26,694 nt of DNA from a virus: positions 1-26,694 of the IMG/VR virus record IMGVR_UViG_3300010885_066456, one strand, 5' to 3'. A model generated the notes under the pieces. That model had not been told where the DNA came from. It was given only the letters and a program-made list of their open reading frames with translations, and did not search any database. Positions 2,282 through 21,947 of the stretch are shown here, in pieces. The number at the start of each line of letters is the position of its first letter. The first letter of the stretch is position 1. Position numbers and translations under genes: made by a program.

Positions 2282-2778
2282 TTCAGGCTGCGGAAGGCTT
2301 GGATGAATGATGCCCGGTATTGGGCCCGATAGTCATAGGGCTCGATGCCGGGAACTTTGATGGTCCCGATCACCGCCGAAGTCCAGGGCCGGGCGGGCAG
2401 GTTCACGAGGGGGCGGGTCCTGTCGCCCCAGGGATGGATGTTCGCGCCGTAGTGAACCGCCGTGGCATAGCCCACGGCCCATCGGAAGGTGCAGAGGTTG
2501 CCGCTGATCTGGAAGGAGTTGCTGGCCCGCAGGGTGCCGAGGTCCACGATGTTCCGGGGCGATCCCACCGGGCGGCCCCTGGTGCGGCTGCCATCGCGGC
2601 GGAAGGCGCCCCCGCGCATGGTCACCCGTGGCCAATCCCATGCCTTGGTGCCCAGCGCATCCTGAAAGGCGCTGTTCAGCTCGGGGAACACCACCCGCGC
2701 CGCCGCCTCTGATGCCCGCTGCGCCCTGGTGAGGGTGGCCGGGTTCACGCGCACCGTGGCCCTGGTGGTGACCCTCAC
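2278..2778 (-). CDS. Putative tail-completion / neck protein (HK97 gp10-like)
   Basis: This encodes 166 residues, basic overall, with an N-terminal helix (TRAQRASEAAARVVFPELN) and a beta-rich C-terminal half ending in PARPWTSAVIGT and YRASFIQAFRSL. A helix followed by a PARPW-like motif near the C-terminus is typical of HK97-gp10/virion-morphogenesis proteins that terminate or complete the tail. The gene overlaps the upstream gene by 4 nt and the chaperone start by 4 nt, so it is translationally coupled and lacks the late motif. The family assignment is by pattern only. Confidence 0.5.
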   Translation of the reverse strand: MRVTTRATVRVNPATLTRAQRASEAAARVVFPELNSAFQDALGTKAWDWPRVTMRGGAFRRDGSRTRGRPVGSPRNIVDLGTLRASNSFQISGNLCTFRWAVGYATAVHYGANIHPWGDRTRPLVNLPARPWTSAVIGTIKVPGIEPYDYRAQYRASFIQAFRSLK

Positions 2779-3245
2779 CGCCCTGCCGCGAAGGTGCCGG
2801 CGAACTCATCGCCTGCAGCGGCACGGATCACCGCATCAATCCCGCCGACACCGGAAAGGCTGGCGATCGTGACCCAGCCGCGCTCCGATTCGGTGGTGGC
2901 CGGCAGGCTGGCCAGGTCGCCCATGAACGCCTCCAGCTTCTCGCCGCGGGGGAGCCCCGTGGGCCTGAGGCCGGTATCGGTCCAACTCCAGGCGCCCCCC
3001 TCGTCCAGCCAGTTGGCGCCGGATGGCACCACGGCCCAGCGGGTGATGTTGCCCTCGATGCCGCCCGAGCCGATGGAGCGCCCGCCACTCTCCCGCTCGC
3101 CGCCGGGGTCCTGGGCCTCAGCAAAGGCCTCGATCACCACCAGATCAGTGGCCCGCTGCAGCCCCTCCCGCAGGCTGGTAGCCGCTGCGGTGGGGCGCCG
3201 CCAGAGGAGGCGAAGGTTGGCGAAGGGGGCGAAGGGGGTGGACAT
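2775..3245 (-). CDS. Putative head-tail connector or tail protein
   Basis: This encodes 156 residues, MSTPFAPFANLRLLWRRP at the start. The middle (about 70-130) is rich in Trp and Gly (WLDEGGAWSWTDTG), and the C-terminus GVGGIDAVIRAAAGDEF looks globular. It starts 3 nt after the stop of the basic 360-residue protein and overlaps the next gene by 4 nt. Its place between head and tail genes suggests head closure or tail terminator. I do not recognise a named family. Confidence 0.5.
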   Translation of the reverse strand: MSTPFAPFANLRLLWRRPTAAATSLREGLQRATDLVVIEAFAEAQDPGGERESGGRSIGSGGIEGNITRWAVVPSGANWLDEGGAWSWTDTGLRPTGLPRGEKLEAFMGDLASLPATTESERGWVTIASLSGVGGIDAVIRAAAGDEFAGTFAAGR

Positions 3246-3248
3246 GGG

Positions 3249-4331
3249 TTAGGGCTTGCGGGGATTCCTGAAGGTGAAGGCTTGCCCTTGTTTGTTCTGA
3301 TACAGAATCTCTCCGCCTTGCTTTTTAACCAGGGCAAGAGCCCTGTCAAAGGCTTCCAGCGTGTGAGCAATGATCCCCACGGTCCCAGCCCTTGGCCCCT
3401 TGCGGACTTGGATGCCTTCCTGGCCTGGAGATCTAGCCGTTCTGGGCTTGTAAATGGGTAGACCTAGCGCCTTTATGTCCGCAACTGCGCCAGATACATC
3501 TGATCGATTCCTTGTGGTTTCACCACGCCTTCTTACGCCATCCACAGAGAGTGGTCCGGCAACGCGGCCTAGACGCTTGCCAGGCTTGCCAGCTTCCTTG
3601 GCCAGCGCCCCCACCTCCAACCCCTTCGGCTTCGCCACCGTCCCCGCCACTCGGGCGGCCTTCACGCGCCTCGCCGGAGGCGCCGGAACCGTGCCGGTCA
3701 GAACCTGCTGGGAAGTGGCTGGCCTCAGGCCACGGCGAGCGCCCCGCTCCCGCTGGATGCGGCGGCTCAGTGCCTGCCGGTTGTCCTTGAGGCCTTGCTT
3801 TGCCTCGGCTGCGTTGGCGGTGCCTGGCTTGGCGTTGCTGAGCCGCCGCCGGGCCCCTCTCACCGCGCCCACGTACTCGCTGATCTTGCCGCGATCGGCT
3901 GTGGGCCCTGGCCGCATTGCGGGGCGATTGGGGCGAATCACCCTCACCGCTGACTTGGCCGATGCCACCGGCTTGGCCGCCCCCTTCCCGCCCTTCCGAA
4001 TCACCCCCGCCCGCGCCGCCATCCGCACCGTGGAGGCCGCCCGCACCTTCCCGAGCCGGTTGGCGCCCCTGGTGACGGCCCCTCTCTGCGCACGCAGGCT
4101 GAGCGATCCCCTCAGGCTGCGATCGGCGGGGTCCTTGGCGGCCAGCTTGGCGCGACTGCGGCGGAGGCTTCCGCGGGCCCCGAGAGTGCCGCCGGTGGCC
4201 TTGGGCCTGGCCGCTCGCCTGGTGGCCGGCGTGCTGCGCTTCGAGGGGGCGCCGCCGGGAGCCGAGGCGAAGCGCCCGCCGTTGTCGCGCACGTAGCTGG
4301 TGCGCTTGCCTCTGCTGCCGCCACGGGCCAT
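3249..4331 (-). CDS. Very basic phage protein with N-terminal RDxxGRFAS motif (360 aa)
   Basis: This encodes 360 residues, dominated by Arg, Lys, Ala and Gly. The N-terminus reads MARGGSRGKRTSYVRDNGGR followed by FAS. The same Y-x-R-D-x-x-G-R-F-A-S signature opens the 489-residue basic protein upstream. Both also share an internal AARxAGTxAKPxG segment, so they are related. The middle looks disordered and nucleic-acid-binding. Only the last about 55 residues (GIIAHTLEAFDRALALVKKQ onward) look folded. The late motif ends 22 nt before the ATG. A role in DNA condensation or as an internal virion protein is inferred. Confidence 0.6.
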   Translation of the reverse strand: MARGGSRGKRTSYVRDNGGRFASAPGGAPSKRSTPATRRAARPKATGGTLGARGSLRRSRAKLAAKDPADRSLRGSLSLRAQRGAVTRGANRLGKVRAASTVRMAARAGVIRKGGKGAAKPVASAKSAVRVIRPNRPAMRPGPTADRGKISEYVGAVRGARRRLSNAKPGTANAAEAKQGLKDNRQALSRRIQRERGARRGLRPATSQQVLTGTVPAPPARRVKAARVAGTVAKPKGLEVGALAKEAGKPGKRLGRVAGPLSVDGVRRRGETTRNRSDVSGAVADIKALGLPIYKPRTARSPGQEGIQVRKGPRAGTVGIIAHTLEAFDRALALVKKQGGEILYQNKQGQAFTFRNPRKP

Positions 4332-4353
4332 GGGATCGGGGTCTATTGCTCGC

Positions 4354-4362
4354 AGTTTTCCC
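4354..4362 (-). promoter_or_regulatory. Late-gene upstream motif GGGAAAACT (copy 2)
   Basis: Minus-strand CGGGAAAACTG lies 22 nt before the ATG at 4331. No good Shine-Dalgarno sequence lies between the motif and the start codon. Confidence 0.65.
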
Positions 4363-4374
4363 GTGGTCCTGGGC

Positions 4375-4494
4375 TCACTTCATCGGCTTAGCCTTCTTCC
4401 CGCCCTTGGCCTTCGCCTTGGGCTTGGCGGCCTTCTTGCCGGCCTTGGGCTTGGCTGGCATTCCACCGAAGTAGGGCATTCCACCTGCTGGCAT
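4375..4494 (-). CDS. Tiny lysine-rich, histone-H1-like protein (39 aa)
   Basis: This short gene encodes 39 residues: a start MPAGGMPYFGGMP followed by KPKAGKKAAKPKAKAKGGKK and a short tail ending KPMK. Twelve lysines and no acidic residues give it an H1-tail or protamine character, as in DNA-condensing peptides. It is supported as a real gene by the late motif 21 nt before its ATG and by its fit between the HNH gene and the basic 360-residue gene. A role in genome packaging or capsid interior is inferred. Its repeats also make a purely structural linker peptide possible. Confidence 0.6.
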   Translation of the reverse strand: MPAGGMPYFGGMPAKPKAGKKAAKPKAKAKGGKKAKPMK

Positions 4495-4515
4495 GGTCTG
4501 TGAGCGACTGCCTGC

Positions 4516-4524
4516 AGTTTTCCC
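4516..4524 (-). promoter_or_regulatory. Late-gene upstream motif GGGAAAACT (copy 3)
   Basis: Minus-strand GCGGGAAAACTG lies 21 nt before the ATG of the 39-residue lysine-rich gene. The spacer holds no clear ribosome binding site. Confidence 0.65.
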
Positions 4525-4552
4525 GCTGGACCCGCCAGACCACGCAAGCCGC

Positions 4553-4888
4553 TCACGCAGAAGCCTGCAGTGCCGGGGCGGCTGACGACACCAGCCAGGC
4601 CCTAATCTTCAACTCCCTATCAGCACAATAAAAGGGCTGTGATTGATACCACTGCCACACATCGCAGTGATTCTTAGAGCCATTGCAGGACGCACAAGCG
4701 GGGATCAGATTAGATCGCTCTGTCGTGCCACCCTTTACCTTCGGGACAACGTGATCAAGGGTGATCTTGTCAGGCTGGCAACCGCAATAGGCGCAACAAC
4801 CGCCCCACGCCTCAATAATTCCCCGCCTAAATCGATGTTTGGTGACACGTTTGGAAACAAGCTGGGATCCTTCAATTTGGTGAGACAC
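4553..4888 (-). CDS. HNH endonuclease, probably homing type
   Basis: This encodes 111 residues from a GTG start. The HNH core is complete: CAYCGC (C32, C35) and CASCNG (C65, C68) form the zinc site, LDHVVPK carries the catalytic D45-H46, and SNLIPAC and CNGSKN supply the later N residues. Such small free-standing HNH proteins cleave DNA and often behave as homing genes. It sits between two structural genes and has no late motif, unlike its neighbours, which fits later insertion. The frame stays open for a few codons upstream of the GTG, so the exact start is uncertain. Confidence 0.85.
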   Translation of the reverse strand: MSHQIEGSQLVSKRVTKHRFRRGIIEAWGGCCAYCGCQPDKITLDHVVPKVKGGTTERSNLIPACASCNGSKNHCDVWQWYQSQPFYCADRELKIRAWLVSSAAPALQASA

Positions 4889-4943
4889 GGGTTTGCCGTG
4901 AGGGTGTGCTAATCGGAGGTGCGGCGGGCAATGGCGCCCCTGC

Positions 4944-5453
4944 TCAGCTCCTCAGCAACATCCCCGCGCCGCTCATCCCCTGCGGGGCGATCCGGGGCAC
5001 GTTGAGGGCCGTGGCGATCCGGTTGATCAGCGCTTGGGTCCGCTCGTCCCGCTGCCCCTGTGCCGTGGCCCTGGCGCCGCCGCCGAAGCGGTAGCGGGCC
5101 TTCAGGAGGGAGGTGTCCCACGCCAGCTTGCCGGCCTGCTTCAGCTGCTCATCCCGCGTGGGCGAGGTGCCGGGGATCGGGCCTTCGTATTCCTCGGCGT
5201 TCCCGAGGTGCGCGATGCCCGCGTCAATCTCATCGGCCTGGATCTCCTCCAGGTTCACGATCTCGTCCAGCCACGCCTGGATCTGCGTCACGGTGCTGGG
5301 GCTGTGCGTGGCGACCGCGTTCATCTGCTGGGTCAACTCCACCAGGCTCCCCTCAGTGGCGGGCCAGCCGATGCAAGTCCTGATCAGGTCCCGATCGTTG
5401 CGCGTGCTGGTGGCCGTGGGGCGCCAGAGGGGGTCAGGGGCGAGGATCGTCAC
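4944..5453 (-). CDS. Putative head-tail adaptor / virion protein (169 aa)
   Basis: This encodes 169 residues from a GTG start. It is helical and mildly acidic in the middle (IQAWLDEIVNLEEIQADEID), with a later helix (TRDEQLKQAGKLAWDTSLLK) and a C-terminal helix (ERTQALINRIATALNVPRI). Size, helix content and position suit a gp6-like head-tail adaptor, but I do not recognise a family. The gene begins 8 nt after the stop of the 82-residue gene, and the late motif lies within that gene's last codons, 21 nt before the GTG. Confidence 0.55.
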   Translation of the reverse strand: MTILAPDPLWRPTATSTRNDRDLIRTCIGWPATEGSLVELTQQMNAVATHSPSTVTQIQAWLDEIVNLEEIQADEIDAGIAHLGNAEEYEGPIPGTSPTRDEQLKQAGKLAWDTSLLKARYRFGGGARATAQGQRDERTQALINRIATALNVPRIAPQGMSGAGMLLRS

Positions 5454-5461
5454 GGCGCGGG

Positions 5462-5710
5462 TCAGGCTGCCCTGAGTTTTCCCGCCGCCGGATCTTCCAG
5501 GCCCTTGCGGGCCCCATGAAGGGTGCCCAGCCAGTACCGGCCCTCGGGGTCCAGGTTGGCGGTCAGCAGCCGCAGGATCTGCTCCCCCTCCGGGTCATCG
5601 GCCACGGCTGTGAGCATCCGCAGGCCCTGCCGCGCTGCCGGGCCATCGCGGCGGAGCACGGCGACGCTGAGGCCCTGGAACAGGCGGAGCGTGGGGGAGC
5701 GGTCGGGCAT
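5462..5710 (-). CDS. Small late-region protein of unknown function (82 aa)
   Basis: This encodes 82 residues starting MPDRSPTLRLFQGLSVAV at 5710. The ATG was chosen because the late motif then lies 22 nt upstream, matching the other copies; a TTG at 5722 would add four residues. The protein is alpha-helical in character (DGPAARQGLRMLTAVADD, ILRLLTANLD) and ends in AAGKLRAA, where its last codons contain the motif of the next gene. It may be a small capsid-associated or connector protein, by position only. Confidence 0.5.
   Translation of the reverse strand: MPDRSPTLRLFQGLSVAVLRRDGPAARQGLRMLTAVADDPEGEQILRLLTANLDPEGRYWLGTLHGARKGLEDPAAGKLRAA
5475..5483 (-). promoter_or_regulatory. Late-gene upstream motif GGGAAAACT (copy 4)
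   Basis: Minus-strand GCGGGAAAACTC lies 21 nt before the GTG at 5453, inside the coding end of the upstream gene (codons for AGKL). Confidence 0.65.
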
Positions 5711-5732
5711 GGGGGCATTCAAGCCGTGCCTC

Positions 5733-5741
5733 AGTTTTCCC
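5733..5741 (-). promoter_or_regulatory. Late-gene upstream motif GGGAAAACT (copy 5)
   Basis: Minus-strand GCGGGAAAACTG lies 22 nt before the ATG at 5710, in the short gap after the small-gene cassette. Confidence 0.65.
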
Positions 5742-5765
5742 GCTACGGAGGGGGTGCCGGTCGAG

Positions 5766-6065
5766 TTACCTTCGGCCTTCTAAAACCGCCCGGTTGCGCA
5801 TTCGCGTGTAGTGGGCCAACGACCGCTCTTGATCCGATTGTCCAGCGTCAAGCTGCCGCACGCGATCACGGAGTAATCGGCGGCATTGCAATAACTTCTG
5901 AGCTACACACCATCTTTCATAACGGTTGCTGCGCTTAAGATTCAACGCTCGCGTGGCAAATTCAAAACCGCAGGACGGGCCAGACAGCGGGTCAAGTTGC
6001 ACTTGCCATACAACTTCACCATCACGAGAAAACTTGCAAACGGAAAACCTTGATTTTGCTGTCAT
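5766..6065 (-). CDS. Small accessory protein of unknown function (99 aa)
   Basis: This encodes 99 residues, basic (FEFATRALNLKRSNRYERW, LLRDRVRQLDAG). The beta-like start SRFSVCKFSRDGEVVWQVQL is followed by helices. The ATG overlaps the stop of the upstream gene (ATGA). Base composition is noticeably less GC-biased than the structural genes, which suits a transferred accessory cassette lying inside the late cluster. No family is recognised. Confidence 0.5.
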   Translation of the reverse strand: MTAKSRFSVCKFSRDGEVVWQVQLDPLSGPSCGFEFATRALNLKRSNRYERWCVAQKLLQCRRLLRDRVRQLDAGQSDQERSLAHYTRMRNRAVLEGRR

Positions 6066-6316
6066 TGATGATCCTCTGTTGATGGGTTGGCTGGTGCCCG
6101 CTTAGCTCTGAACCGGGCCACCCGTGCTGCTCGATTGGCCCGGCCTTCGGGGGTGAAGCGCTCCCAGCAGCGGGAGCAGTGGAGGCCGTGGCGCCCGTCG
6201 TGCGTGGTGGTGCAGCCGGGGCCGGCGCAGGTGACCTGCACTGCGGGGGGCAGAAGTCCGGCTTGGCGGAGCTTGAAGCGGCGCTGCCGATCGGCGGCGG
6301 TGGGGTCAGTAGGCAT
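6062..6316 (-). CDS. Small zinc-finger-like basic protein (84 aa)
   Basis: This encodes 84 residues starting MPTDPTAADRQRRFKLRQAG. A Cys/His cluster (TCAGPGC, then HGLHCSRCWERF) about 30-55 residues in suggests a zinc ribbon. An arginine-rich tail (RANRAARVARFRAKR) follows. The ATG at 6316 overlaps the end of the upstream gene by 11 nt; a start at 6415 would add a low-complexity Ala/Pro stretch and is less likely. It may bind nucleic acid. The family is not identified. Confidence 0.5.
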   Translation of the reverse strand: MPTDPTAADRQRRFKLRQAGLLPPAVQVTCAGPGCTTTHDGRHGLHCSRCWERFTPEGRANRAARVARFRAKRAPANPSTEDHQ

Positions 6317-6584
6317 AGCGACGGCGCCCCCTGGCGCGGCGCCCCCTGGCGCGGCGTGCGCGGCGCTTGCGGCCGATGGGACTGGCCCGCTTGGCTTCAA
6401 TAACGTATCGCGCAAACGGAATCAGACTTTCGTATGCGACATGAAAAGCCCGCCCAATAGCAAGGTAGTTATCGCTAAGGATCTTTGCGGCGTCATTCCA
6501 TTTTTTCAGAGATTCGCTATCTATAGTTGGATAGGGCATGGTTTTAGTGCTGTCCATGGCGGTGTGTGCGGTGGGGTCAAGCAT
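6306..6584 (-). CDS. Small protein with arginine-rich C-terminus (92 aa)
   Basis: This encodes 92 residues. The helical body (SESLKKWNDAAKILSDNYLA, HVAYESLIPFARYVIEAKRA) is followed by a tail of RRARGRRARGRRR type. The tail comes from a perfect 15-bp tandem duplication in the DNA. The ATG at 6584 overlaps the upstream gene by 8 nt. The tail may bind nucleic acid or may simply be a by-product of the repeat. No family is recognised. Confidence 0.5.
   Translation of the reverse strand: MLDPTAHTAMDSTKTMPYPTIDSESLKKWNDAAKILSDNYLAIGRAFHVAYESLIPFARYVIEAKRASPIGRKRRARRARGRRARGRRRYAY
6323..6352. repeat. Perfect 15-bp tandem repeat (two copies)
   Basis: GGCGCCCCCTGGCGC occurs twice back to back (6323-6337 and 6338-6352). 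It lies within the 3' end of the 92-residue gene and encodes its RRARG repeats on the minus strand. Confidence 0.85.
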
Positions 6585-7174: not shown

Positions 7175-8644
7175 TCAGAACCGGAACGCGGCCACGTCCT
7201 TGCCGCCGTTCGCCTTGATCAACTGCTCAAGCTGCCGCTTCCACGCCTTGGAGCCGCGGATCGGGCCGGGCTTGGATCGAGACCGGCGGATGCTGCCGCC
7301 ACCCAAGCGCTCCCCAACGGTGCGGAAGCGGCCGGCGCCGACACGCTCAACCCGGCCCGACAGGCTGAGTTGTGAGACCTTCGGGCGGCTGATCACGGTG
7401 CGCGGGGCGGAGTCGGCGAAACCACTGCGCTTACCCGCTGCCTCGTTGAAGCCCCGTTTTGCGGCGGTCGCCTTCCCGAGGGTGTTGGTGCGTGCCCGCT
7501 GTGCCCTGATGGCTTGCGCCTTGGTGCGGTAGGTGGTGCGGGTTGATCTTGCGATAGGGGCGGGCTTTCGCCCTTGAGGCTTGGCCATGGTTCCTGCAGG
7601 CCGGGCGGCATTGATCCGCTTAGGGGCAGACTTGGCCCTTGGCTGTGGCATCAACACGGGCTTAGGCCGAGGCTTTGCCTTGCCGGCGGGGCGGCTGCCC
7701 TGATACCACTCTGACGCCATTCGTACCGCCTCAGAGCTGCGCCTGTTTATGGCAGGATTTTGTCTGGCTGGATTGGGATTCCACCGGCTATACGGAGCCC
7801 TCGCCGCCGCTGCGATTTGGCCAAGCCTTTCTTGGGCTCTTTTGACTTGACCCGGCCTAACTAGACTTCGCTTTCCGCTTTGCGGCCTTGATTGATTCCC
7901 AATTCCACCTATAAAGTTGCCGTAGGCTTTCATCCGCTTCTGGTTGCCAAAAGCCTCCGAAAGTCCCTTTTTCAATTCCTCTCGCGTTTTCGCCTTTTGC
8001 CGTTTATGAAATCCGGCCAGACCAGATGCAAATGACGCAGCGTTTTCCCTGATTCTTGCCGCTCGCCTGGCCTTTGCGCCCGTCCTGCCTTCGCCAATTC
8101 TCTTGATCCGCTCCACATAGGCGTCGGCCTTTTGTTGCTTGGTCTGACGTTTTGGCTTGGTCGTTGGCTTGACCGGAGCGGCTGGCTTGGCCACGGGCTT
8201 AGCCCTGTCCTGCTTTGCAATCCGGCTCTGCGCCGCAAGCCTGCGCCTGGTCGCATTCTCCGCAACTGGAAAGTTGCCGCGTGCGATGGCTGCTTTATCA
8301 TAACGAGCTTGGTTCTTTTGAACCATTTTGCTCATGTAATTACTCACCTTCGCCTTGCTTACATCCGTCGCCCTAATCGCCCCGGAAGGAGACTGCCGCT
8401 TCTTCACTCGCTCCAGCACCGCCCCCCGCTGGTTCCCGGCGGCGGTCCTGAGGCGACCACCCCTCGCCGTGGCGCCGTTCTTGCCCACCCCGGTGATCTT
8501 GCCGCTGTTGTCCCTGGTGATCCGGTTCGTGCCCCGCTGCGCTCGCCGTGCGGCGGGCTTGGTCTTGGCGGTGGTGGTGCCCGTTGAGGCGAACCGCCCC
8601 CGGCCATCACGGGCATAGGTGCGACGGGCGGATCTTCGGGCCAT
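7175..8644 (-). CDS. Very basic phage protein with N-terminal RDxxGRFAS motif (489 aa)
   Basis: This encodes 489 residues, extremely rich in Arg, Lys and Ala with few acidic residues. It opens MARRSARRTYARDGRGRFAS, the same signature as the 360-residue basic protein, and carries the matching segment AARPAGTMAKPQG. The long middle is KPxKP-like and probably disordered. The C-terminus (RGSKAWKRQLEQLIKANGGK) is helical. It occupies the position after the MuF protein where a scaffold and capsid gene usually stand, but its strongly positive charge is unlike known scaffolds. A DNA-associated internal virion protein is my guess. The late motif ends 20 nt before the ATG. Confidence 0.6.
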   Translation of the reverse strand: MARRSARRTYARDGRGRFASTGTTTAKTKPAARRAQRGTNRITRDNSGKITGVGKNGATARGGRLRTAAGNQRGAVLERVKKRQSPSGAIRATDVSKAKVSNYMSKMVQKNQARYDKAAIARGNFPVAENATRRRLAAQSRIAKQDRAKPVAKPAAPVKPTTKPKRQTKQQKADAYVERIKRIGEGRTGAKARRAARIRENAASFASGLAGFHKRQKAKTREELKKGLSEAFGNQKRMKAYGNFIGGIGNQSRPQSGKRSLVRPGQVKRAQERLGQIAAAARAPYSRWNPNPARQNPAINRRSSEAVRMASEWYQGSRPAGKAKPRPKPVLMPQPRAKSAPKRINAARPAGTMAKPQGRKPAPIARSTRTTYRTKAQAIRAQRARTNTLGKATAAKRGFNEAAGKRSGFADSAPRTVISRPKVSQLSLSGRVERVGAGRFRTVGERLGGGSIRRSRSKPGPIRGSKAWKRQLEQLIKANGGKDVAAFRF

Positions 8645-8664: not shown

Positions 8665-8673
8665 AGTTTTCCC
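8665..8673 (-). promoter_or_regulatory. Late-gene upstream motif GGGAAAACT (copy 6)
   Basis: Minus-strand ACGGGAAAACTGC lies 20 nt before the ATG at 8644, in the 44-nt gap after the MuF gene. Confidence 0.65.
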
Positions 8674-8688
8674 GTCAGGGCTTCGGCT

Positions 8689-9781: not shown

Positions 9782-11323
9782 TCAGCTCAGCGGCAGCCCC
9801 TGCGCGTCCACGTCATCCCCGGCCAGGTCGCTCGCCCCCGGCGCCGGCGGGTTCATCAGTGCCTGCTGCCGTTCATCCTCGGCGGCCAGATCGGCGGCCT
9901 CCTTCTTGCCATCGGCACCAGGGCGCAGCATCCCCCGCTTCTGCGCCAGGTGCGTGACCGTCTCGCGCATCAGGAGGCCCTTGTCGTAGAGGGTGCCGGC
10001 CAAGGTCAACAAGGCATCGTCCACGGGCTTGTCGGTGACCCCTGGCAGCAGGTCAAGGCCCGCGCCGGGCTGGGGCAGCTCGCCGGTGAAGGCCCCCCAG
10101 AGCTGGAAGAGGCTCTCCCAAGCGCTGCTCTTGCTCTCGGCCATCGCGGTGATAGTGGCCTGCAGCTGGGCCCCTTCCAGCTCGGCCTGGGTGGCGGTGC
10201 GCTCACCGCTGCCGCTGAACAAAAACGACAGGGTGCTGCGATCGATCAGCTTCTCGATCCCCTCCAGGTGGGTCAGGTGCTTGTCGAGGCTGCTGCCGGA
10301 GGGTTCGGCAAACTCCAGGCCCTCCCCGGATCCGGCGTTTGGGAACTCCACCACGCTGTTCGGCCCCAGCATCAGCGGCAGGGGCTCACCATTGGGCCCA
10401 GCCATCCGGCGCCCTTTCACCACGGCCACCGGCAGAGCACATCGGTGCAGCAGCTCCTTCAGGTCGGAGTATTCGCGGAACCAGTCAAGGGTGAGGTTCG
10501 CCAGGCTCAGCAGCGGCAGGCCGCCCTCCCCAAAGCCGTCGCGGCTGACGCCATACCAGGCCACCGGCGGGCTCTCCAGTGCCTCGCCCCTGGGCCCCGT
10601 GAAGGTGCCCTCCTGCGGGCGCCCGTCATCGTCGGTGGCCACCTTGATGATGAAGTTGGCCGAAGCCCCCTTGCCGCCGTTGCCGGTGATCTCCAGGAGG
10701 CGCCAGCTGCCGCCCTTCATCACCCGGTATCGGGGCTCCAGCTTGACGCCGTAATCCCAGTCTTCTACCTCGTGCCACTCCAGGATCGTGACCGCGATCG
10801 GCACCCGCCGGCCGCCCCGCTTGACGGTCCGCCAATTCAAAACGTTCCGGCGCTCGGCGGCTGAGAACGTGGGCCGGCGGCCTTGGGCCCGCTCCTGCGC
10901 CCTGCTCTCGGGCGTCCCCGGCGGTGCGTCGGCCATCAGCAGGCAGCCGCCGTCCCGGAGCACCAGGGCATCGGTGCCGAGGCCCCAAGCCTTCAGGCTG
11001 TTGCCCTCGCCATCGATGTCCTGGGCCGCGTCGAGGAGGCCCTGCTGCACCCCTCGCAGCTGGTAACGGCTCAGCACCCCCGCGAAGGCGCTCACGCCAT
11101 CCTTGAAAAAGCTCGGATAGCTGCTGCGCCCCACCCGCGCCTCATAGGCCTGCCGGGGTTCACCGGCCTCTTTTGGCAGGTGGCGCTTCTTTGCATCACC
11201 TCGCAGCAGGTCCCAGCAGTCAGCGACCAGATCGAGGTCGCGCATCACCTCCCGTAGCTTCGGGTGCTGGAACGACGGCAGATCGCCCTTATTGCTTGGG
11301 TGGCTGGTCTGCTGCTGCTGCAC
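9782..11323 (-). CDS. Phage portal protein (DUF4055-like)
   Basis: This encodes 513 residues from a GTG start. Recognisable features are FKDGVSAFAGVLSRYQLRGV near residue 75, LANLTLDWFREYSDLKELLH near 275, and a helical C-terminal half with LTHLEGIEKLIDRS, SGERTATQAELEGAQLQATI and SAWESLFQLWGAF. This order matches DUF4055-type portals, which form the dodecameric DNA gate and bind terminase. Terminase lies upstream and MuF directly downstream. The start overlaps the end of the sigma-factor gene, whose last codons carry the late motif 22 nt before the GTG. Confidence 0.85.
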   Translation of the reverse strand: MQQQQTSHPSNKGDLPSFQHPKLREVMRDLDLVADCWDLLRGDAKKRHLPKEAGEPRQAYEARVGRSSYPSFFKDGVSAFAGVLSRYQLRGVQQGLLDAAQDIDGEGNSLKAWGLGTDALVLRDGGCLLMADAPPGTPESRAQERAQGRRPTFSAAERRNVLNWRTVKRGGRRVPIAVTILEWHEVEDWDYGVKLEPRYRVMKGGSWRLLEITGNGGKGASANFIIKVATDDDGRPQEGTFTGPRGEALESPPVAWYGVSRDGFGEGGLPLLSLANLTLDWFREYSDLKELLHRCALPVAVVKGRRMAGPNGEPLPLMLGPNSVVEFPNAGSGEGLEFAEPSGSSLDKHLTHLEGIEKLIDRSTLSFLFSGSGERTATQAELEGAQLQATITAMAESKSSAWESLFQLWGAFTGELPQPGAGLDLLPGVTDKPVDDALLTLAGTLYDKGLLMRETVTHLAQKRGMLRPGADGKKEAADLAAEDERQQALMNPPAPGASDLAGDDVDAQGLPLS

Positions 11324-12260
11324 CGGTGCCTAGTCCTTCTGGCCCAGTTTTCCCGCTTGCGTGGGGGTCGTGACAGGCACCAAACAAATCCAACTGCTCC
11401 GCCACCTGCAGGATCTCAACCGGATCCGTGATGCGCCTCCCCGCCTTGCCCTCGGGGCCTCCAACCCCGTCAGGCACGACCAGGGCCAGGGCCTGCTGTT
11501 CTGGCGCCGGGTTCAGCCGCTCGCCCCAGATGATGCCCTCGGCATGCCTCAAGAACTGCCCGTGGGGCATCCGCGCCACCTGGCGCCGGGGCTGGGCATC
11601 CCAGGCCGTTTCGAGCATCTGCCGGTCCGCCCACCGCAGCGCGGCATGGGCCTCGTCCGCGATCCGCAGCGCCTCGTTTAGCTCGTCGTAGCTCTCGATC
11701 TCGTCCCACGGGTCAGGCTCACGGTTGGCATGGAGGGCCTCAGGGTCGAGGAGCCGCGTCGCCCCCTGCGCTTCGAGGATCGCCGTCACCTCCTCAGCCG
11801 CGAGTCCGGTAGTCTCCACCACGGCCGAAAGGGTGGCCCCATCGGCGGCCAGACGCCGCACCGTGGGCGCCACATCCCGCCAGCGATCGGGGAACTTCAC
11901 CCCGGAGCTGTGGCCCTTGTCCCGCAACCACTGCGCCATGGCCCCGCGGATGTAGGGCACCACGCACGTGCTCAGGGCAAAGGGGCGGTCGGTGGCTGGG
12001 TTGAGGCGCTCGGGGTCATACCGGCGGCAGCCGTTCAGCAGGCCCCTCGCGGCCACCAGGAACAGATCATCGAACGGCATCCGGGTGGACCGGGCCATCC
12101 GGTTGGCCATTGCCGTGGCAAGCATGAGGTTGTCGGCCGCCAACTGCTCGGACCATGCCGTAGGCGGCGGAAACCCGTTGAGCCGGTCCAGATCAGGACA
12201 CGGGTCAGGCCGGACCTTCTCGCTGCGGGCGGCCCTGAGGCGCCGGGTGGTGGTGGCCAT
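11289..12260 (-). CDS. Phage-encoded sigma-70 family factor without recognisable region 4
   Basis: This encodes 323 residues, starting MATTTRRLRAARSEK at 12260 (a TTG two codons earlier is less likely). Residues about 42-124 match sigma region 2: ADNLMLATAMANRM, DDLFLVAARGLLNGCRRYDP, FALSTCVVPYIRGAMAQWLR and GVKFP, corresponding to core binding and -10 recognition/melting. Residues about 126-164 look like region 3 (VRRLAADGATLSAVVETTGL, then EEVTAIL). The remaining about 160 residues show no canonical region 4 helix-turn-helix. Such a protein should direct RNA polymerase to phage promoters with little -35 contact, as T4 gp55 does. It lies between terminase and portal. An RNA polymerase sigma-like DNA-binding protein with another role remains possible. 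Confidence 0.75.
   Translation of the reverse strand: MATTTRRLRAARSEKVRPDPCPDLDRLNGFPPPTAWSEQLAADNLMLATAMANRMARSTRMPFDDLFLVAARGLLNGCRRYDPERLNPATDRPFALSTCVVPYIRGAMAQWLRDKGHSSGVKFPDRWRDVAPTVRRLAADGATLSAVVETTGLAAEEVTAILEAQGATRLLDPEALHANREPDPWDEIESYDELNEALRIADEAHAALRWADRQMLETAWDAQPRRQVARMPHGQFLRHAEGIIWGERLNPAPEQQALALVVPDGVGGPEGKAGRRITDPVEILQVAEQLDLFGACHDPHASGKTGPEGLGTGAAAADQPPKQ
11346..11354 (-). promoter_or_regulatory. Late-gene upstream motif GGGAAAACT (copy 7)
   Basis: Minus-strand GCGGGAAAACTGG lies 22 nt before the portal GTG and inside the sigma-factor coding end (codons for SGKTG). Confidence 0.65.
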
Positions 12261-20064: not shown

Positions 20065-21228
20065 ATGACAAACGAGTACGCGGGGCAGATGCCCCCATTT
20101 ACGGCTCTGCCGAATTGGCTGAGGGGCAAGACCACCCCATTGGAGCTGGCGGTCATGTGGTGTCTGCAAAGCCACTTCCCGAACATTCACCCAGGCCTTG
20201 AGCTGCTGCACGAGGAGGCCGGGATGGCCAAGAGCACGCTCTGCTCAGTCCTCATAGGCCTTGAGCGTAAGGGCTGGGTCAGGCGCCAGCGGGCATTCCT
20301 GGAAAACGGGCGGAGCACTTCAACCCGCTATCGGCTGACGATCTGGGACACGCATTGGCAGGTTGAGGCCGAGCAGTCCGCCTGGAGTGTCCGGGAGGCG
20401 GACAGTACGGAGTGTCCGGGAGGCGGACAGTTGAAGGTGTCCGGGAGGCGGACAGTGAGTGTCCGGGAGGCGGACAGTGAGTGTCCGGGAGGCGGACAGG
20501 AAGTAGATAAATCTAAGAAGATTAATTCTAAGAAGGTTTTAGAACCCCCCTTACCCCCCGCTGCGCAGGGGGAGCGCCGGCCCGAGGCCGTCGCCGCTGG
20601 CCCGTGTCGTGATCGGGATGGATTCCTGATCTCGATCCCCGAGCCGCAACCCCAGGTCGCCCCGGAACCACCCCCCGAGGCACCGGCAGCCGTGCAGCCA
20701 CAGCCGCAGCAGCGGCCCCGCCCCGAACCACCGCCGAAGCCGGCGCCAGACCCTGAGGCGATCGTCCCGGTCAAGCCGCAGGCTCAGAAGCGCGAGACTG
20801 GGTTTAAGCCTGCTCACGAGGATGTTCCGGCGGCGCTGCTGCCGGTGGTTCGCGAACTGCTCGCGTTCTGGCCGGCGCGAAACCCGAAGGCCAAGCGGAC
20901 GCAGCGGGCCTGGGAGGGAATGCTCACCGAGGCCCAGAAAATCCAGGATCATCAGCAGGGCGGCACCGAGATCCTGCGGGAGCAGCTGCAGGAGGGCGCC
21001 GCGGCGAGGGTCTCCGGCCCTGGGTGGCTGGGGCTGAACTTCAACCGCTGGCAGCAATACGGCACCAAGGCCGGCACGCCGGTTATGGGCAGCGGCTTCA
21101 GGGGTCGCCTGACGCCTGAGCAATCGGCAGCGGAGGCCATCGCGTTCATCCGCAATCGAGACGCGAAGGCTGCCGCAGCGGCAGCGGCAACCACGCGGCA
21201 AGCAGTGCTCGTGGAGGTGCTGGCGTGA
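20065..21228 (+). CDS. Replication initiator-like winged-helix protein (lambda O-like role)
   Basis: This encodes 387 residues starting MTNEYAGQMPPFTALPNWLR. Residues about 25-95 form a winged helix (PLELAVMWCLQSHFPNIHPG, LLHEEAGMAKSTLCSVLIGL, ERKGWVRRQRAF), as in phage replication organisers. Residues about 108-145 are the translation of the iterons. Then comes a long Pro/Gln-rich linker, and a C-terminal part with ELLAFWPARNPKAKRTQRAW and GWLGLNFNRWQQYG that may contact a helicase loader. The gene heads the rightward operon that ends with a RusA resolvase. Nested iterons with an AT-rich tract strongly suggest it binds them to open the origin. Confidence 0.75.
   Translation: MTNEYAGQMPPFTALPNWLRGKTTPLELAVMWCLQSHFPNIHPGLELLHEEAGMAKSTLCSVLIGLERKGWVRRQRAFLENGRSTSTRYRLTIWDTHWQVEAEQSAWSVREADSTECPGGGQLKVSGRRTVSVREADSECPGGGQEVDKSKKINSKKVLEPPLPPAAQGERRPEAVAAGPCRDRDGFLISIPEPQPQVAPEPPPEAPAAVQPQPQQRPRPEPPPKPAPDPEAIVPVKPQAQKRETGFKPAHEDVPAALLPVVRELLAFWPARNPKAKRTQRAWEGMLTEAQKIQDHQQGGTEILREQLQEGAAARVSGPGWLGLNFNRWQQYGTKAGTPVMGSGFRGRLTPEQSAAEAIAFIRNRDAKAAAAAAATTRQAVLVEVLA
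20388..20499 (+). repeat. Five 18-bp iterons of a putative replication origin
   Basis: TGTCCGGGAGGCGGACAG occurs five times without change at 20388, 20413, 20438, 20460 and 20482 (start-to-start 25, 25, 22 and 22). Each copy is an imperfect palindrome (TGTCCG ... CGGACA). Every spacing equals 1 modulo 3, so successive copies are translated in different frames (VREAD, CPGGG, SGRR). This shows conservation of the DNA, not the peptide. Confidence 0.9.
20388..20545 (+). other. Putative phage replication origin (iterons plus AT-rich tract)
   Basis: The five iterons are followed at once by about 45 bp of AT-rich sequence (20500-20545, including GATAAATCTAAGAAG and TTAATTC) in an otherwise GC-rich gene. 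This matches the lambda ori plan, where iterons and an adjacent AT-rich unwinding element lie inside gene O. Confidence 0.75.
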
Positions 21229-21947
21229 TCACCCTCGAAGAATTTCAGGCGGCCATCACGAGCCTGCTGCAGCTCCTGCCGATGCAGCGACCTCTGACCC
21301 CGGCGGCCTTGGTGCTGGCTTGGGACACGTTCCCGGCCAGCGCGAAGCGGGATCTCACCGGGGAGGTGTTGCGGTTCTGCGTGGGTCAGCGGCTGATGGA
21401 TCCAGCGCCGCCGAAGGAGCTGGCGCCTCACCTGGCCCTGCTGCGGTACGCCTACCCGCTGGAGAACGACCGGCCAGCGACTGAGCGGCGGTTGCGGTCA
21501 GATCTGGCCGAGCGCATGGCGGCCCCCGACCACTTCCACGATCCAGCCCCGGTGCGGCATGAGCAGACCCCGCCTCCAGAGCGGCTGAGGCTCCCCGGTG
21601 GTGGCCGGCAGTGGCATCCGAGCCAGATGACCGCAGAGCAGCACGCGGCGCACCTGCGGGGTGTTGCGGCGGCGATGCAGCGCCTGCGGGACCGCGGCGA
21701 TACTGGCCGGGGCTGGAAGGCCGATGATTCGCGGCTGGCTCAGGGCCGGTGGTGGTTCCAGTGCTGCCTTGATGGCTTCTGGCCGCTGCAGGCCGATGAC
21801 GGGGGTATTGCCGGGGCGTGGATCCTGGCCAATGGCCGCCTGGCGGATGATCTGCTGCAGCAGGCCCAGAGCGCTCCGGGGTTGCTGCCACCGGCTGAGG
21901 TGGTGGTGGCCGAGCTGGTCGTCCAGAGGGTGAACCCATGGCGGTGA
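21225..21947 (+). CDS. Replication-module protein of unknown function (240 aa)
   Basis: This encodes 240 residues from a GTG overlapping the initiator stop (GTGA). The N-terminal about 90 residues are helical (MITLEEFQAAITSLLQLLPM, ALVLAWDTFPASAKRDLTGE), then a Pro/Arg linker and a C-terminal part with GRWWFQCCLDGFWPLQADDG. It takes the place of lambda P (helicase loader) in the operon, but I do not see Walker or other loader motifs. Function is unassigned. Confidence 0.5.
   Translation: MITLEEFQAAITSLLQLLPMQRPLTPAALVLAWDTFPASAKRDLTGEVLRFCVGQRLMDPAPPKELAPHLALLRYAYPLENDRPATERRLRSDLAERMAAPDHFHDPAPVRHEQTPPPERLRLPGGGRQWHPSQMTAEQHAAHLRGVAAAMQRLRDRGDTGRGWKADDSRLAQGRWWFQCCLDGFWPLQADDGGIAGAWILANGRLADDLLQQAQSAPGLLPPAEVVVAELVVQRVNPWR

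Follow-up and report, generated by a model that had tools for sequence, protein, structure and literature searches.

Does an open reading frame (ORF) of only 39 codons, short enough that gene callers may miss it, represent a genuine gene of the virus that carries it, and if so, what would its product do? The ORF lies in IMG/VR record IMGVR_UViG_3300010885_066456, of which positions 1 to 26,694 were analysed (26,694 nucleotides, hereafter the window). Read on the minus strand from 4494 to 4375, it encodes MPAGGMPYFGGMPAKPKAGKKAAKPKAKAKGGKKAKPMK, a peptide composed of 12 Lys, 8 Ala, 7 Gly, 6 Pro, 4 Met, one Phe and one Tyr, with no Asp or Glu. This composition agrees with the original prediction, made from the sequence alone, of a Lys/Ala/Pro peptide of 39 residues with 12 lysines and no acidic residue. 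The larger basic protein that was said to adjoin it is present as well, as a 360-aa protein whose gene starts 43 nt past the stop codon of the small gene. The features discussed below are listed in Table 1.

Table 1. Positions of genes and upstream motifs in the window.
Feature	Position	Strand	Remarks
156-aa gene	2775..3245	minus	downstream of the slot
360-aa basic protein	3249..4331	minus	net +66; own motif; N-terminal YxRDxxGRFAS tag
CGGGAAAACT motif of 360-aa gene	4354..4363	minus	exact match; site 4363, start ATG 4331
39-aa Lys/Ala/Pro/Gly-rich protein gene (small gene)	4375..4494, including stop codon	minus	ATG to TGA ORF
CGGGAAAACT motif of small gene	4516..4525	minus	exact; starts 31 nt before ATG; site 4525, start ATG 4494
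HNH endonuclease reading frame	4553..4951, stop to stop	minus	PF01844, E 1.1e-11; between neck and small genes
169-aa neck (head-tail) protein candidate	4944..5453	minus	GTG start; own motif 5475-5484
489-aa basic protein	7175..8644	minus	N-terminal YxRDxxGRFAS tag; own motif 8665-8674
Phage sigma factor	11289..12260	minus	phrog_36098, E 6.6e-15
Exact CGGGAAAACT site	1064	minus	start ATG 1029
Exact CGGGAAAACT site	5484	minus	start GTG 5453
Exact CGGGAAAACT site	5742	minus	start ATG 5710
Exact CGGGAAAACT site	8674	minus	start ATG 8644
Exact CGGGAAAACT site	11355	minus	start GTG 11323

The motif CGGGAAAACT upstream of the small gene occurs in the window at eight sites with at most one mismatch, against 1.15 expected, a count reached by 0 of 100 shuffles. 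Seven of these sites are exact; they share the minus strand, and a start codon follows each of them at 30-35 nt. Among the genes so preceded, those for the portal protein and the 169-aa neck candidate have a GTG start, and the other five encode basic proteins of 489 and 360 aa, the 39-aa peptide, an 82-aa protein and a 288-aa tail protein. The claim that the small gene carries a late motif at the standard distance is thus borne out as far as the spacing is concerned, which is 31 nt before its ATG and 30-35 nt before the six other genes; this also places the small gene in the gene set that we defined by a motif 28-39 nt before the start. The eighth site (6025, one mismatch) lies on the plus strand and is followed by no ORF. 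A weaker GC..GCAG element is found downstream of the motif, the upstream side shows no comparable conservation, and no second conserved promoter box was seen around the CGGGAAAACT contexts. A partial inverted repeat, CTGC..GCAG, overlaps the motif end after each CGGGAAAACT in the window (e.g. 4517-4508, minus strand).

The same arrangement extends to related viruses. Across loci of this phage group, named phages left out, 135 of 140 distinct 60-nt contexts of GGGAAAACT are followed, 28-39 nt further on, by the start of an ORF of at least 25 aa; the motif read backwards has 4 contexts in the same loci. A pattern scan for an extended form of the motif returned 25 stretches, which contributed further contexts to this count and nothing else. 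The 135 contexts lead into 55 RDxxGRF basic genes, 10 copies of the MPAGG gene, 10 tail genes and 60 others, proportions that reflect loci chosen for this phage group and are not genome-wide. By its placement, CGGGAAAACT behaves as a promoter- or translation-type element of a co-expressed gene set, and as it also precedes portal, neck, tail and basic-protein genes, the small gene is probably expressed late. We infer that the phage sigma factor encoded in the window is a candidate reader of CGGGAAAACT. A changed motif, CGGGAAACCT, precedes several genes in L048 (10349, 11522, 11693, 11824 and 12850) and is also found in L029 and L032, as if the element and its reader had shifted together in this lineage; CGGGAAAACT is retained at 7699 and 16118 of L048.

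The small gene is intact in 23 contigs, including the window, which together encode 14 protein variants of 27-44 aa. The copies comprise 27, 35, 39, 40, 41, 42 or 44 codons, and the length changes left the frame unshifted, because every copy ends in PMK followed by the stop codon. The peptides share a conserved N-terminus, MP[AK]GG[MK]PY..., followed by a Lys/Ala/Pro tail, and acidic residues are absent from all variants. The tail is encoded by an imperfect 12-nt array of 2.9 copies, which would explain the drift in its length. Three diverged copies of 41-42 aa (L139, L143 and L144) read MPKGGMPYGGSKM(AP)MPKPAKGGKKAPAKAPAKGGKKAKPMK, and 29 of 37 aligned residues are common to a diverged copy and the window peptide. 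All 23 leaders contain GGGAAAACT, preceded by C except in L087, where it is T, and the motif lies 31, 32, 33, 34 or 35 nt before the ATG. Conservation of motif and frame in relatives had been proposed as a check, and frame-breaking changes as the observation that would count against the gene; the same frame, with the motif 31-35 nt upstream, is kept in 23 of 23 contigs.

Pooled pairwise comparison of 15 DNA variants from 21 contigs yielded a pN/pS of 0.292 (bootstrap 0.17-0.45) for the annotated frame, versus 1.82 and 0.89 for the other two sense frames and 1.76, 0.58 and 1.89 for the three antisense frames, of which antisense frame 1 (0.58) is also below 1. Before the diverged copy was added, the value was 0.247 versus 0.58-2.36 in other frames (14 variants, 20 contigs), and the diverged copy compared with the rest alone gave 0.43; L143 and L144 are part of the 23-contig count and stand outside the selection statistics. 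A set of 13 variants gave a bootstrap range of 0.09-0.53 and contained 5, 8 and 17 variable columns at the three codon positions (binomial p 0.007, kinship ignored). In the same set, pN/pS was 0.14 in the N-terminal part versus 0.32 in the tail, and of the 144 cells in columns with a Lys majority, 141 contained Lys and 3 Gly. All contigs carrying the small gene are kin, and the selection figures do not derive from independent events. Clear signs of selection appear confined to the annotated frame. A chance open frame within a GC-rich repeat, or an RNA or DNA element, would fit the repetitive sequence and the fact that the opposite strand is also open (57-aa ORF, 4330-4503), yet this explanation is scarcely credible in view of the frame-specific purifying selection and of a start, a stop and a motif that are conserved despite the length changes. 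Because of these same features, the small gene is almost certainly a genuine protein-coding gene.

The small gene and the 360-aa gene occupy a slot between the 169-aa gene and the 156-aa gene. Neither Pfam nor PHROGs yielded a match for the 169-aa protein at E<=1. Its predicted fold (mean pLDDT 69, pTM 0.57) is best matched by the cyanophage A-1(L) gp5 neck protein, with a Z of 8.8 over 104 residues and the next match at 5.2, a middling score of a kind that may mislead, above all for helical folds; Foldseek alone returned a weak match for the same model (E 0.82, probability 0.87). Judged from this model, the protein is likely, if not certain, to be a neck protein. The HNH frame that follows looks like a mobile insertion, because L063, L067 and similar contigs have no room for it at this position.

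A survey of this slot covered 22 loci, 20 of them readable; some contigs are near-duplicates, meaning that the 20 slots are not 20 independent cases, and contigs seen in other comparisons (e.g. L055, L059, L064, L065 and L077) are not included. The small gene is present in 11 of the 22 slots (window, L006, L011, L023, L028, L056, L057, L058, L062, L063 and L067), and in 10 of these 11 the next one or two genes belong to the basic RDxxGRF type. L011 and L077 lack the 360-aa gene, and there the small gene is directly followed by the 156-aa gene. On the L023 contig, the neck gene is followed first by a non-basic gene encoding at least 245 aa and then by a diverged small gene and two basic genes; the motif-led non-basic ORF (20801-21535) contains ASDIHLD, DGNHE and NGHNHE stretches that resemble a metallophosphatase. 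Other loci contain different genes at this place. L053, L054 and L061 encode a 186-aa basic RDxxGRF protein in place of the small gene, L078 a 22-aa Lys-rich ORF without the motif (MSCGKPHGGKGSKGGKKGKPSR, starting MSCGKPH), and L041 a 70-aa ORF whose scanned part, the last 45 aa, matches DUF6496 (PF20106, E 3.9e-10). The slots of L026, L036, L046 and L048 contain a large basic gene only, and those of L029 and L032 are truncated where the contigs end, with the start of a basic RDxxGRF gene visible in L032. L029, L032 and L048 additionally encode another Lys-rich peptide of 26 aa (MNCGKPHTGKGMKGTKPGTKGTKKGK and variants) earlier in the block, where a variant of the motif lies 34-44 nt ahead of it. 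None of the 20 readable slots is without a strongly basic gene, the basic proteins having net charges of +47 to +125. As far as its distribution indicates, the small gene is an exchangeable accessory, and a dispensable one, because it is absent from relatives with a readable slot.

The large basic proteins form a family of their own. No Pfam or PHROGs family was found for the 360-aa protein at E<=1, and no relative in any named phage at E<=0.01. In 20 of 20 within-genome pairs, the YxRDxxGRFAS tag is more alike than the basic remainder (median 63% versus 27%). The strongly basic tagged proteins are encoded in multiple copies in the window, L028, L061 and L063, with up to four in one locus (L061).

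The nearest named phages are S-CBS2, S-CRES1-3 and PSS2, which share 35-38% identity in the large terminase subunit (TerL) and 34-36% in the portal protein, and the order terminase then sigma factor is common to the window, S-CBS2, PSS2 and S-CRES3. Uncultured IMG/VR contigs are more closely related, with 48 loci identified through TerL and 16 through the 360-aa protein. One relative from a genome collection is a contig of the MAG 'Cyanobacteria bacterium REEB417', which is too little to name a host. By these gene comparisons, the phage is a distant relative of the cyanosiphoviruses S-CBS2 and PSS2. No named phage is close to region 3000-6500 by DNA, and the family scans made recognised no major capsid gene in the window; the gene annotated as 'major head protein' in S-CBS2 is distant from the portal gene. 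A 22-23-bp repeat (TGGAGTGTCCGGGAGGCGGACAG) is present in about five copies at 20383-20499 of the window, inside ORF 20065-21228, with a unit that is not a multiple of three; these repeats could be iterons. The examined parts of S-CBS2, PSS2 and S-CRES3 differ from the window in containing only isolated GGGAAAAC matches and, among their Lys-rich ORFs, none of the MPAGG type. Unannotated Lys-rich ORFs of 32 and 36 aa are nonetheless visible in PSS2 (L080, 30451-30549) and S-CBS2 (L082, 34225-34335), and small Lys-rich phage ORFs are thus a familiar kind.

Neither Pfam nor PHROGs contains a family that the window peptide matches at E<=1, and the sole match among 10 small-gene variants scanned against PHROGs was phrog_38176 (E 3.2). 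Searches of named phages by tblastn, with the 39-aa peptide and with the first 24 aa of a similar peptide from L088, gave no match at E<=10, the low-complexity filter being able to mask such queries. Pattern scans were more productive. MPAGG[MK]PY retrieved 27 stretches, of which 19 are the small gene. The remainder include a 349-aa ORF in L098 and a 16-aa ORF in L100, neither of which is the small gene, and four matches in L096, L101, L105 and L109 judged to be coincidence, in that they are out-of-frame readings of CPTCQQEVN codons inside a 601-602-aa gene, which we take to be gp46/SbcC-like; the out-of-frame ORFs are Lys-rich, 29-31 aa long and preceded by AAGGAG. Lys-rich MPAGGKPYGK... peptides of 30 and 31 aa are encoded at 552 in L088 and at 40 in L092, with a GGAG-type ribosome site and ahead of a terminase-like module, in phages that differ in other respects, and may be convergent with the small gene. 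The 12 stretches matching MP.GGKPYG added L125-L128 (MPKGGKPYGTGKGGGKKK..., without the motif) and unrelated ORFs in L129 and L130. M.CGKPH gave 5 stretches, namely three 26-aa peptides (L131, L134 and L135) and two unrelated ORFs. MP.GGMPY gave 21, comprising 14 known copies, L098, the new copies L139, L143 and L144, and unrelated 30-aa ORFs without the motif in L140-L142. No title or abstract among the literature matches listed describes the small peptide or its motif, and the string CGGGAAAACTG occurs in 7 papers, none of which, by title, deals with phages of cyanobacteria. The small peptide is therefore new in having no Pfam or PHROGs family and no description among these matches, and its general kind is known.

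Several known proteins resemble the small peptide in composition or context. The C-terminal tail of histone H1 and bacterial H1-like proteins are Lys/Ala/Pro-rich, devoid of acidic residues and probably disordered. The small peptide is alike in all three respects (K12 A8 P6, no Asp or Glu, probable disorder); unlike linker histones H1 and H5, it lacks a globular winged-helix domain, for which 39 aa leave no room, and it matches no Pfam family at E<=1. The original description of the peptide as histone-tail-like consequently holds for its Lys/Ala/Pro-rich, non-acidic composition, and the Pfam scan (E<=1) found no kinship to histones. Adenovirus mu and baculovirus P6.9 are short polycationic core peptides, and mu is encoded near larger basic virion proteins. 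The small peptide is likewise a short polycation encoded near larger basic proteins, but is rich in Lys rather than Arg and belongs to a different kind of virus. DUF6496 (PF20106) is linked to it by position, as the matching ORF fills the slot after the neck gene in L041, whereas the window peptide differs in sequence and gave no match at E<=1. The best precedent, by analogy, may be the T4 internal head proteins IPI-IPIII. According to the passages of PMC9026906 that deal with them, these are small basic proteins put into the prohead core, calculated at about 300 copies each, that bind DNA when salt is low and are targeted to the capsid by a short N-terminal sequence; mutants without them have been studied. 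They are about 8-20 kDa in size and cleaved in the prohead, whereas the small peptide has 39 aa, or about 4 kDa, and, in its window form, has no sequence match to a described phage family in PHROGs. With regard to the N-terminal targeting sequence, it is the N-terminal part of the small peptide that is most constrained (pN/pS 0.14).

As the upstream motif is common to the small gene and to head, neck and tail genes, a role in assembly is suggested. Short Lys/Ala/Pro/Gly-rich peptides without acidic residues are expected to be unstructured and to bind nucleic acid by charge. In the best reading, which we put forward tentatively, the small gene would be switched on together with the virion genes through CGGGAAAACT, presumably late, and its product would be a disordered polycation with a conserved N-terminus and a Lys/Ala/Pro tail, the length of which drifts as whole codons are gained and lost. 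The tail would bind DNA electrostatically and regardless of sequence, within or on the head or neck under assembly; docking of the peptide to a virion or assembly partner would be the task of the conserved N-terminus, in analogy to the T4 internal proteins. Working beside the larger basic proteins, which follow a similar plan of a conserved N-terminal tag and a diverging basic remainder, the peptide would be an optional DNA-charge-neutralising accessory and would neutralise or contact DNA, probably while the head is being filled, in the manner of the T4 internal proteins.

Alternatively, the peptide could act on protein, as a cement or assembly aid whose Gly/aromatic N-terminus binds the neck or capsid and whose Lys tail binds an acidic protein surface. 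The proximity of a neck-like gene and the strong constraint on the N-terminus agree with such a function, which we nevertheless consider unlikely: relatives exist that have the neck gene without the small gene, and refilling of the slot by other basic proteins points to charge, rather than a fitted interface, as the more important property. Patchy distribution is what would be expected of a small basic accessory for late host takeover, one that remains intracellular, where its targets would be the DNA of the host nucleoid, ribosomes or RNA. This is rather unlikely for a gene that shares its motif with virion genes and sits inside the head-tail block. Quite improbable is a by-product of a shuffling basic-gene family, translated and weakly selected without a specific role. 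The imperfect 12-nt tail array (2.9 copies), the presence/absence variation among relatives and the divergence of the adjoining basic genes are compatible with it, but a pN/pS of 0.29, the conserved N-terminus and the steady absence of acidic residues are not what it predicts, and two contigs keep the small gene without a large basic gene.

The preferred reading of a virion-associated, DNA-binding accessory can be extended to the slot as a whole. In this more doubtful proposal of a 'charge slot', every lineage would express some polycation between the neck and 156-aa genes, and which one would be free. MP[AK]GG peptides of 27-44 aa, the 22-aa MSCGKPH peptide, the DUF6496 protein and the 186-aa RDxxGRF protein would replace one another and, together with the N-tagged larger paralogues, make up a modular system that neutralises DNA in a protamine-like way and is brought into the head through N-terminal tags. 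At the level of gene discovery, a shared upstream motif combined with frame-specific selection can reveal a gene short enough to be skipped, and the orthologue set of the small gene can serve as a guide for proteomics. The charge slot, if true, would make it possible to test whether these cyanophages package their DNA with several interchangeable polycations.
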